64,000 bases of DNA from Actinomycetota bacterium (lineage in GTDB: Bacteria > Actinomycetota > Acidimicrobiia > Acidimicrobiales > Ilumatobacteraceae). Positions 54,199-56,577 of this stretch are shown here, piece after piece. The notes under the pieces were generated by a model that made no database searches, had not been told where the DNA came from, and saw nothing but the letters and a program-made list of their open reading frames with translations. The stretch is taken from the NCBI GenBank assembly GCA_016870215.1, contig VGCD01000005.1, positions 1 through 64,000 of the forward strand. Reading direction: 5' to 3'. Positions within the stretch are counted from its first letter, which is position 1. The number at the start of each line of letters is the position of its first letter. The position numbers were made by a program, and so were the translations under genes.

Positions 54199-55410
54199 CT
54201 ATGAGCACATGACTCGGTCGCGTGCTGCCAAGTCGGCATACACGCGTCGCAATCTGGCAGCGGCAAAGTTCCATGTGTATCGCCGTGCACGCTCTGCAGC
54301 ATTGATGCCGAGAGTTCGAGCCAGTACGGGTTGGTTAACGAGGTCGGTGACGTGTCGGGCAAACACATCGGGGTCACGATCGGCTACGAGGTAGCCGGTT
54401 TGACCATGTTCGACGATGGTCAACAAGCCACCAACTGCATTGGCGACGACTGGTGTTCCGCATGCAGCGGCTTCAAGTGCGACAAGTCCGAAACTTTCAC
54501 TACGGCTCGGAACCAAAACCACATCAGCTGCGCGGTAATACGTGCTGAGAATGTGGTGCGGTTGCGGCTCGATGAACTGAACGCGATCGGTAACTCCCAA
54601 CTCATCGATCAGTTCAAGCATTCGATGCAATTCAGCCACACCCTCGGTGCCACTCGCACCACCGACGACGAGCAAGCGTGCATCGGGTCGCGGCACCATG
54701 GAGAGAGCACGAATGGTAACATCGAGGCCCTTCAGTGGTTGGATGCGTCCGACAAACAACAACACAGGCTCATCACCCAATTGCAATGCATGCCTTGCGC
54801 CACGCTTGTCACCAGGAGCAAAAAAAGCGTGTTCGACACCTGGGGCAACAATTTCGAGTGTTCCGGGCGGAGTGCCATACAACTCAATGAACTGACGCTC
54901 TTCTTCTGAGCAACTGACACAAATTGCGTCAGCACACCCGATGATGCCCATCTCGGCTTGCTCACGCAGTTCCGACTCGGGGTCGCCACCTTGGGCTTTC
55001 ACTCTGGCAAACGTGTGAAAAGTGGTGACCAGGGGAACATTCAAGTCATGTTTCAAACTGTGGCCGGCAAGTCCAGATAACCAGTAGTTCGCATGTACGA
55101 CATCGGTTCCGCCATTAGCGAGCACATGTTGGGCGACTTTGTCGGTGAATTCAGGAACAAACGACACCAAATCGTCTTTGGGCATGTCGGGGTCACCCAC
55201 AGAAATGTGCACGATGCGGTGATTCGGTTCGACTTCCACCACAGGCGCGAGTCCTTCACGCCACGCCCGGGTGTAAGTAGTGCAGTCAATGCCTGCGTGT
55301 GCAAGACCAGCCACGAGTTCGCGCACGTACACGTTCATTCCACCACCGTCGCCAACACCAGGTTGAGCGAGCGGAGATGTGTGAAGAGAGAGAACGGCTA
55401 CGCGTTGCAC
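54199..55410 (-). CDS. mshA: D-inositol-3-phosphate glycosyltransferase of mycothiol synthesis
   Basis: A 403-residue GT4 glycosyltransferase, first step of mycothiol synthesis (UDP-GlcNAc + inositol-3-phosphate). The N-terminal loop VGDGGGMNVYVRELV is specific to MshA within GT4, as is HANYWLSGLAG. VGRIQPLKGLD and the EX7E-type SRSESFGLVALEAAACGTPVVA are donor-site motifs. Mycothiol is the thiol of actinobacteria, so this supports the phylum. Confidence 0.93.
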   Translation of the reverse strand: MQRVAVLSLHTSPLAQPGVGDGGGMNVYVRELVAGLAHAGIDCTTYTRAWREGLAPVVEVEPNHRIVHISVGDPDMPKDDLVSFVPEFTDKVAQHVLANGGTDVVHANYWLSGLAGHSLKHDLNVPLVTTFHTFARVKAQGGDPESELREQAEMGIIGCADAICVSCSEEERQFIELYGTPPGTLEIVAPGVEHAFFAPGDKRGARHALQLGDEPVLLFVGRIQPLKGLDVTIRALSMVPRPDARLLVVGGASGTEGVAELHRMLELIDELGVTDRVQFIEPQPHHILSTYYRAADVVLVPSRSESFGLVALEAAACGTPVVANAVGGLLTIVEHGQTGYLVADRDPDVFARHVTDLVNQPVLARTLGINAAERARRYTWNFAAARLRRVYADLAARDRVMCS

Positions 55411-55448: not shown

Positions 55449-55856
55449 CTAGTGCGAAGAAGGTGGCTCTACAGGACCGACGTATGAGCGATACACGCTG
55501 AGAAGCGTCTGTTTTTGCTCTGCGGTCAGATGTGGATCAGCTGCAATTGCATGCGACACGCTGGGAGATGACTCATGGGCCTCTGGGTCGAGGATGCCGG
55601 CACGTACGTACAAACTCTCGGATGAGATCTCGAGGGCGCGCGCTATCTGCTGAAGGATGCTTGCCGATGGTCGACGAATTCCGCGTTCAATCTGCGACAG
55701 GTAGGGATTTGAGACTCCCGCCGCTTTCGCAAGGTCGCGGATGCTGTGTTGTGCAGCTTCGCGTTGCTGTTTGATGAAGTCGCCAACGTCGCGAAGGCGG
55801 TCAGAGGGAGAACGATCAGATGATCTGTCGTGAGGCGACGCGCTCTGTTCTGTCAT
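55449..55856 (-). CDS. XRE-family transcriptional regulator (Rv0474-like)
   Basis: A 135-residue protein with one helix-turn-helix at about 28-82: IKQQREAAQHSIRDLAKAAGVSNPYLSQIERGIRRPSASILQQIARALEIS. The sequence around GVSNPYLSQIERG and SLYVRAGIL recalls mycobacterial Rv0474. A Ser/Arg-rich tail precedes the domain and an acidic one follows. ATG 55856 overlaps the stop of the RsiG-like gene as ATGA, so the two are translationally coupled. Confidence 0.87.
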   Translation of the reverse strand: MTEQSASPHDRSSDRSPSDRLRDVGDFIKQQREAAQHSIRDLAKAAGVSNPYLSQIERGIRRPSASILQQIARALEISSESLYVRAGILDPEAHESSPSVSHAIAADPHLTAEQKQTLLSVYRSYVGPVEPPSSH

Positions 55857-56338
55857 CTGTTCTCGAGCACTGCACCAGCACCGCCCTCTTTCAGGCGCCG
55901 CACGAGCTCGGCGGTGAGGGCATCTATTTGCTCGAACAAATCGTGACGGTCGCGAGAACACGATTGCTCAAAGAGGGACAGTGCGCTGTCGAGCGCCGAC
56001 AGCGACGAATCTGACAATGAATCCAAGTCTTCAAAGTTGAATTCAGCACAGAGTTCATCGAGTTGCGCTGCGAGCGGGTCGTCCGTCGGCACGATCGTTT
56101 CACGAGGTGGCCGTGCACTGCCACCACCGTGCTGTTGCCCGAACACATCAGCAAGGCGTGCAGCAAGGTCTCGTGAATCTGCCGGAGCACCGTTAGCACG
56201 ACGCCGTTGTTCGTCATGCACCAAATCAATGCGACCCTGAGCGAGACGTCGCACGAAGGACACGACGTCTTCTTGGCGTTGCAACTCACCACGTCGTGCT
56301 CGAATGTCTGCAAGAGAAAGCGAAGAAAAATCAGTCAT
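55853..56338 (-). CDS. RsiG-like c-di-GMP-binding protein (anti-sigma factor family)
   Basis: This 161-residue, mostly helical protein contains the RsiG c-di-GMP signature E-x3-S-x2-R-x3-Q-x3-D exactly: Glu23, Ser27, Arg30, Gln34, Asp38. A second copy in the C-terminal helix is Glu124, Ser128, Arg131, Phe135, Asp139, so only Gln is changed. RsiG of Streptomyces holds two such helices in an antiparallel coiled coil that grips c-di-GMP and sequesters the sigma factor WhiG. Acidic, Ser-rich residues 85-122 and the loop between form the rest. No sigma factor gene is in the window. ATG 56338 overlaps the MoaD-like gene as ATGA. Confidence 0.8.
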   Translation of the reverse strand: MTDFSSLSLADIRARRGELQRQEDVVSFVRRLAQGRIDLVHDEQRRRANGAPADSRDLAARLADVFGQQHGGGSARPPRETIVPTDDPLAAQLDELCAEFNFEDLDSLSDSSLSALDSALSLFEQSCSRDRHDLFEQIDALTAELVRRLKEGGAGAVLENR

Positions 56339-56577
56339 TGACTTCCACCAGACACAGGGGGCAACACAGCCACTTCGTCTTCGTCGGACACTTGCATGGA
56401 CGGGATCGCTTCCTCGCCGTTCAGCCACACTTTGCACGTGGTAAGCACGACACCGAAGTGAGTGCCGTATTTCGCCACTGCTGCCTCGAGCACATCACTG
56501 ATTGTGTCACCAGCAAGAGTGTCTGCGGCGGTTCCTGCTGCCTCACGTGCTGCGGCGAACAATCGCACCCGCGCCAT
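56335..56577 (-). CDS. MoaD/ThiS-family ubiquitin-like protein
   Basis: An 80-residue protein of the beta-grasp sulfur-carrier type: VRLFAAAREAAG at the start, then helix and DEDEVAVLPPVSGG near the end. In MoaD and ThiS the di-glycine is the C-terminus and is adenylated. Here two residues (Ser-Gln) follow the GG, so a protease or another function would be needed. Candidate roles are molybdopterin, thiamine or cysteine synthesis; no partner gene is next to it. ATGA overlap with the RsiG-like gene downstream. Confidence 0.8.
   Translation of the reverse strand: MARVRLFAAAREAAGTAADTLAGDTISDVLEAAVAKYGTHFGVVLTTCKVWLNGEEAIPSMQVSDEDEVAVLPPVSGGSQ

Follow-up and report, generated by a model that had tools for sequence, protein, structure and literature searches.

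A family-wide variant of the c-di-GMP-responsive anti-sigma factor RsiG with an aromatic residue in its second motif in Ilumatobacteraceae

The window analysed here is a whole stretch of 64,000 nucleotides of DNA (contig VGCD01000005.1, positions 1 to 64,000 of the forward strand) from an actinobacterium of the family Ilumatobacteraceae, order Acidimicrobiales. Towards its end, the interval assigned to rsiG in Table 1 contains stops in the plus-strand frame, and the minus strand carries a complete gene for a 161-residue protein, called P0001. The first of the two putative c-di-GMP motifs of P0001 has the consensus residue at all five positions (E23, S27, R30, Q34 and D38) and also fits the wider form E(X)3S(X)2R(X)3[Q/H](X)3D, while in the second one E124, S128, R131 and D139 are retained and Phe135 occupies position 4, where the published consensus has Gln. 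The original prediction, which named no strand, had placed an exact motif at residues 23-38 and a second one at residues 124-139 that differs by Phe for Gln alone, and the sequence agrees with it on both counts. When P0001 was shuffled 20,000 times, one motif with five out of five positions was obtained in 25 shuffles and such a motif together with a second one matching at least four out of five positions in none. Overlaid in the register of the motifs, the two helices of P0001 share 11 identities over 45 positions, four of which are motif residues. The XRE gene is followed, on the strand of rsiG, by genes of the mshA, ybjN and proC types; the glycosyltransferase gene listed in Table 1 is the one which we take to be mshA.

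Table 1. Position of the rsiG homologue, its motifs and neighbouring genes in the window, and of the candidate partner sigma factor in the source genome.
Feature	Coordinates	Strand	Basis
rsiG homologue P0001, 161 aa, putative twin-motif anti-sigma factor	55853..56338	minus	Pfam PF22802, phmmer, Foldseek
Motif 1, EDVVSFVRRLAQGRID, residues 23-38	56225..56272	minus	exact E-x3-S-x2-R-x3-Q-x3-D
Motif 2, EQSCSRDRHDLFEQID, residues 124-139	55922..55969	minus	Phe replaces stacking Gln
Phe135 codon TTC	55934..55936	minus	read from sequence
Conserved loop, FGQQHGGGSARPPRET, residues 66-81, joining the two long helices	56096..56143	minus	two alignments and model
MoaD/ThiS-fold gene, directly upstream, ATGA overlap with rsiG	56335..56577	minus	Pfam ThiS 44.5 bits
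XRE-type helix-turn-helix regulator, directly downstream, ATGA overlap with rsiG	55449..55856	minus	Pfam HTH_3 58.2 bits
Glycosyltransferase, next gene of the same-strand run	54199..55410	minus	Pfam Glycos_transf_1 139.7 bits
WhiG/FliA-type sigma factor, 250 aa	G000:C1:176398-177150		TIGR02479 and solved relatives

P0001 matched the Pfam RsiG model PF22802 in two stretches with 74.6 bits (cut-off 27), and the same model gave no match in any of 14 control genomes. Among proteins of solved structure, its best relative was RsiG of S. venezuelae (6pfj/6pfv; phmmer E=2e-14, residues 4-154), followed by the single-motif proteins of Rubrobacter. An AlphaFold model of P0001 computed from 37 sequences (mean pLDDT 85.6) showed long helices at residues 9-48 and 110-152, and the predicted fold is that of an antiparallel two-helix coiled coil. 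Foldseek searches with this model returned just four matches at E <= 0.001, all of which were RsiG chains of 6pfv/6pfj (for 6pfv_B, E=6.3e-05 and TM 0.62). Model confidence is low for the loop at residues 71-77. In the phmmer alignment, H70 and R76 of this loop are paired with H110 and R115 in the S. venezuelae protein, both of which are named among its c-di-GMP contacts (PMC7288161). Judged by homology, P0001 is an RsiG, and the RsiG-like nature originally proposed for it is borne out by Pfam, phmmer and Foldseek over nearly its whole length.

The source assembly (2,007,417 bases in 55 contigs, 91.8% complete) contains one RsiG gene, which holds both Pfam stretches. Sigma region 3 was found at three places in this genome, and the one at C1:176728 belongs to the 250-residue protein of Table 1. 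Among solved structures, this protein is nearest to the WhiG chain of the RsiG complex (E=2.5e-70, as compared to 1.6e-50 for the best FliA). It reached 258.6 bits against the FliA/WhiG model TIGR02479 (above the cut-off of 189.6) and 275.8 bits against the narrower NCBIfam WhiG model NF004935 (below the cut-off of 343). Its residues K38, G42 and R43 align with K57, G61 and R62, the c-di-GMP contacts of S. venezuelae WhiG (PMC8325347). The three contacts were kept in all 31 sequences compared, i.e. the genome's own and those of the 30 best-scoring family loci. The sigma factor gene lies among DprA-, integrase/XerC-, M23-peptidase-, ribosomal S2- and EF-Ts-type genes, presumably a place similar to that of whiG in Streptomyces. 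The genome further encodes two GGDEF-EAL proteins of 759 and about 650 residues, one with a GGDEF and the other with an SGDEF sequence, which by their domain content could make and remove c-di-GMP; in Streptomyces, RsiG is reported to face competition for WhiG from a GGDEF-EAL enzyme, RmdB (PMC13232838). The original prediction had proposed that the genome be searched for a WhiG/FliA-type sigma factor and for diguanylate cyclases; the former is present with its c-di-GMP-contacting residues, and for the latter, the two proteins with GGDEF domains are candidates.

To follow the two genes beyond the source genome we used a family sample of 150 Ilumatobacteraceae genomes and a phylum sample of 396 genomes. 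In the family sample, RsiG was found over the cut-off in 135 genomes and a FliA/WhiG sigma factor over the TIGR02479 cut-off in 130. Both genes were present in 124 genomes, neither in 9, RsiG only in 11 and the sigma factor only in 6 (Fisher test, which ignores kinship, 6.5e-6). Among the 76 genomes at least 90% complete according to rounded figures, the sigma factor was absent from five out of five genomes without RsiG versus 3 out of 71 with RsiG (Fisher 3e-6, again ignoring kinship). In this family, RsiG and WhiG tend to occur jointly or to be missing jointly, which is what partners would show. Three of the 11 genomes with RsiG and no sigma factor over the cut-off are at least 90% complete (rounded). 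The five genomes at least 90% complete in which RsiG and a FliA/WhiG sigma factor over the cut-off are both absent (G008, G011, G023, G050 and G090) represent five genera (g9, g12, g13, g20 and g24) and constitute a natural series for studying what accompanies the RsiG-WhiG switch; both genes were present in 8 of 10 sampled genomes of g13 and in 6 of 10 of g20. RsiG was found in 248 genomes of the phylum sample, in 246 of them over the cut-off. Outside the family, RsiG is patchy within the window's order: a match was absent in 12 of 19 genomes (f3, f4, f6 and f9), including all eight listed for f4.

The best explanation of these data, to which we assign a probability of about 0.86, is a c-di-GMP-armed RsiG-WhiG switch. 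RsiG would be an anti-sigma factor folded as a two-helix coiled coil, whose two motifs, one per helix, would clamp a c-di-GMP dimer when the level of c-di-GMP is high. The c-di-GMP-loaded RsiG would then bind the WhiG-type sigma factor and hold it inactive, and falling c-di-GMP would release WhiG and allow transcription of the WhiG genes. This explanation draws on homology, the predicted fold, the two motifs, the partner sigma factor with its contacts, the GGDEF-EAL proteins and the joint presence or absence of the two genes. The points against it are the Gln missing from motif 2, the score below the NF004935 cut-off, the lack of a recognisable WhiG regulon and the genomes which carry only RsiG or only the sigma factor. 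We infer c-di-GMP binding, stacking by Phe and sigma inhibition by P0001.

Motility had originally been suggested as the output. A search for the flagellar export gene (FHIPEP), which matched 4 out of 14 control genomes, gave no match in the 91.8%-complete source genome, and a flagellar output was rejected on this ground. WhiG-type promoters were searched with the published flagellar consensus TAAA/GCCGATAA, using the reversed consensus as control. The source genome contained no exact site, and allowing up to two mismatches there were 53 sites versus 77 for the control. Exact sites in the 150 family genomes numbered 15 (in 13 genomes) versus 52 for the control (hand-summed). The flagellar consensus is thus not enriched in either set, and the motility suggestion finds no support here either. 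Loci were available for 30 of the 53 sites of the source genome, and 28 of these were inside open reading frames of at least 150 residues on either strand; L143 was the sole site of the 30 that lay outside such frames and had a long gene no more than 200 bases away. Upstream of both GGDEF-EAL genes, tadA, tadE, whiG, moaD-rsiG and the dehydrogenase gene beside tadA, the consensus scored no better than random, and no candidate WhiG-controlled gene stands out in the site and upstream scans. There may be a small WhiG regulon with flagellar-type promoters.

A Tad-type pilus was considered as what the switch controls; this idea does not compete with the best explanation but would supply it with an output. 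One T2SSE ATPase was found over the cut-off in the source genome, with T2SSF and TadE genes adjoining it on C14, and these genes suggest a pilus of this type. The small cluster (G000:C14:23770-26416, corresponding to L074:9771-12417) is followed by a STAS-domain gene. In Rubrobacter, a relative with a single motif seems to govern type IV pili (PMC8325347), and this precedent of type IV pili together with c-di-GMP enzymes, to which the missing match for a flagellar export gene can be added, makes pili the first guess for the output. However, the best flagellar-consensus scores upstream of tadA and tadE were 7/12, at or below those of random stretches, and nothing ties the pilus to WhiG, so that this guess is a doubtful one.

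The c-di-GMP-armed switch must also accommodate the residue at position 4 of motif 2. We compared 83 distinct family sequences, comprising P0001 and 82 sequences from 89 loci (7 identical ones were dropped) in 83 of the other 134 RsiG-bearing family genomes (30 best-scoring loci and 59 picked across genera, 6 shared). Position 4 of motif 2 was Phe in 79 and Tyr in 4 of these sequences, and all 83 carried E/D, S, R, Q and D in motif 1 and E, S, R, F/Y and D in motif 2. Named loci, taken as the best 80 of 102 relatives and thus close to the query by selection, showed ESRQD and ESRFD in 80 out of 80; the titles of these best 80 of 102 are mostly Ilumatobacteraceae, Acidimicrobiaceae and plain Actinomycetota MAGs, some bearing species names that are evidently wrong, and the closest relative among them is UBA2093 with 94% identity. 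Decay or a sequencing error as the origin of Phe135 was rejected because the residue is shared across the family.

For a phylum-wide survey, 98 loci were chosen for score or spread. A scorable motif pair was obtained for 67 of them, the remaining 31 being single-motif proteins or outside the search pattern. At position 4 of motif 2, these 67 pairs from outside the family had Gln in 23, His in 22, Leu, Ile or Met in 13 and Phe or Tyr in 9 cases. Other families of the window's order showed His in 6 of 7 loci (1 unscored). Aromatic residues recurred in family f23 (Phe in seven out of seven loci read) and, with one Phe and one Tyr, in f11 and f12 (same class). In a quick tree of 91 rows computed with the position-4 column omitted, the aromatic state changed at least three times, two of these changes being forced by strongly supported branches, and the tree does not separate gains from losses. 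As the position can be Gln, His, aliphatic or aromatic, Gln is no strict criterion of the homologous RsiG family; in PMC8325347, a Gln-to-His exchange in motif 1 is the sole exception described among the homologues. The variation at position 4, a residue published as conserved in motif 2, with E, S, R and D mostly kept provides a natural series for testing the stacking position.

Further deviating RsiG proteins were observed in the phylum sample. L210 and L267 (f59) and L260 (f67) have a short-spaced twin-motif RsiG with a motif distance of 86-90 residues, and their second motif has the look of a typical motif 1 (e.g. EAKVSYRRRVIQGKID), which would fit swapped halves or a separate duplication. 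For L211 (G170:C77), the second RsiG stretch of the genome shows a single TGA within the frame that was matched, yet a motif pair can be read in one open frame. In L233, L238, L254, L255, L228 (f21), L266 (f55), L234 (f58) and L263 (f63), the search pattern picks up a single motif whose position 4 is Ile or Leu; it is apparently the second one, and the first one seems to deviate.

We searched the literature on RsiG, WhiG, c-di-GMP, Acidimicrobi* and Ilumatobacter and found no report of an aromatic motif 2 variant; the supplementary alignment of PMC8325347 may show Phe. The main text of that paper uses neither the word 'phenylalanine' nor 'aromatic', and passages of two c-di-GMP reviews, one of them PMC7288161, contain no mention of Phe in RsiG. 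The aromatic motif 2, which is common to the family and turns up again in two further groups, has apparently not been described before. In solved complexes, Gln of motif 2 stacks on guanine (PMC8325347), and the bases of c-di-GMP may stack on Phe or Tyr in binding sites generally (PMC7288161), so that an aromatic replacement fits the same role. Going by this analogy, Phe or Tyr probably stacks on guanine at motif 2 in the family instead of Gln.

Alternatively, RsiG might bind WhiG while the Phe-bearing motif 2 misreads c-di-GMP, resulting in a weaker, asymmetric or c-di-GMP-independent switch. The replacement of the guanine-stacking Gln in all family sequences examined is in line with this idea, and the aliphatic residues in 13 of the 67 pairs of other families indicate that this corner of the protein tolerates change. 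However, E, S, R and D of motif 2 are invariant in the same 83 sequences, Gln is replaced by an aromatic residue in each of them, which is what preserved stacking would predict, and WhiG retains its c-di-GMP-contacting K, G and R in 31 out of 31 sequences. We therefore consider a misreading motif improbable and favor the c-di-GMP-armed switch with both motifs in use.

Gene order around rsiG was compared across the family and the phylum. Without exception, MoaD adjoins rsiG in the family (59 of 59 loci) and in the named loci with room (77 of 77, among the best 80 of 102). For XRE the figures are just 33 of 58 in the family and, among the same best 80 of 102, 45 of 76 in the named loci with room; in the same-genus relatives L075 and L076, XRE does not adjoin RsiG. 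An mshA gene was found downstream within 4 kb in all 55 family loci with enough sequence. Elsewhere in the phylum, 20 loci were compared by tblastn, two of which had no RsiG match; in the other 18, XRE was matched in 10 and MoaD in 4. Six loci of other families have XRE 1.2-2.4 kb and mshA 2.4-4.1 kb downstream and no MoaD match, and four Streptomyces-like loci had no match to the genes that neighbour rsiG in the window, over a distance of about 9 kb. Since the XRE-mshA-ybjN-proC run is found near RsiG in several other families, our reading is that it represents an inherited old gene order and not a signalling module. The original prediction had coupled RsiG to both neighbours. For XRE this was not supported, as its patchy adjacency makes it unlikely as a partner of RsiG; the adjacency of MoaD proved regular, but it says nothing on the output. 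A single functional module of RsiG, XRE and MoaD, in which XRE would act as the output regulator, is improbable, since the ATGA overlaps at both junctions, which make co-translation of the three genes probable here, and the constant company of MoaD are set against an XRE gene that is missing from the junction in many family and named loci, L075 and L076 included, and that lies at a distance from rsiG, with no MoaD match, in the six loci of other families.

Returning to the c-di-GMP-armed RsiG-WhiG switch, its most far-reaching version holds that there is a distinct aromatic RsiG form, family-wide and shared with two other actinobacterial groups, whose half-clamp stacks guanine by Phe or Tyr and which governs a WhiG programme other than sporulation and flagella in small-genome members. 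For this version as a whole we see the odds as even. RsiG occurs in 135 of 150 genomes of a single actinobacterial family, including a genome of 2.0 Mb that gave no match for a flagellar export gene.

PMC8325347 describes RsiG-WhiG as the sole sigma/anti-sigma complex known to be a target of c-di-GMP. P0001 resembles the S. venezuelae protein (6pfj, 6pfv; PMC8325347) in its homologous residues 4-154, its twin motifs on two long helices and its WhiG-type partner with K, G and R; it differs in having Phe where the latter has Gln in motif 2, and the Streptomyces-like loci differ in their gene neighbourhood, as seen in the four loci compared above. Twin-motif RsiG is described as working as a monomer (PMC8325347), so a model of a dimer, as originally proposed, does not apply. 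The sigma factor belongs with the WhiG/FliA family by its TIGR02479 score and by its closeness to WhiG among solved chains, and departs from it in its NF004935 score and in the lack of enriched flagellar-type promoters in the genome and the family sample. Rubrobacter, which is unicellular and non-sporulating, has the same device outside sporulation, and type IV pili seem to be driven by the switch there (PMC8325347); the Rubrobacter RsiG (7lq2, 7lq3, 7lq4), matched to P0001 by phmmer, differs in having one motif and forming a homodimer, with type IV pili and dgc/pde genes as the predicted output. Twin-motif RsiG of the same type was reported for three out of four species of Acidimicrobiales, the order of the window's organism (PMC8325347), and other families of this order differ by the His at position 4 in 6 of 7 loci, which makes the aromatic residue particular to the window's family within the order. 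With these Acidimicrobiales and Rubrobacter in print, the novelty originally seen in an RsiG outside sporulating actinobacteria falls away. As twin-motif RsiG of Acidimicrobiales and a non-sporulating use have both been published and RsiG is common, P0001 is best regarded as a well-founded member of an already known system, carrying a family-wide variant motif, and the finding extends the RsiG-WhiG system rather than adding a new one.
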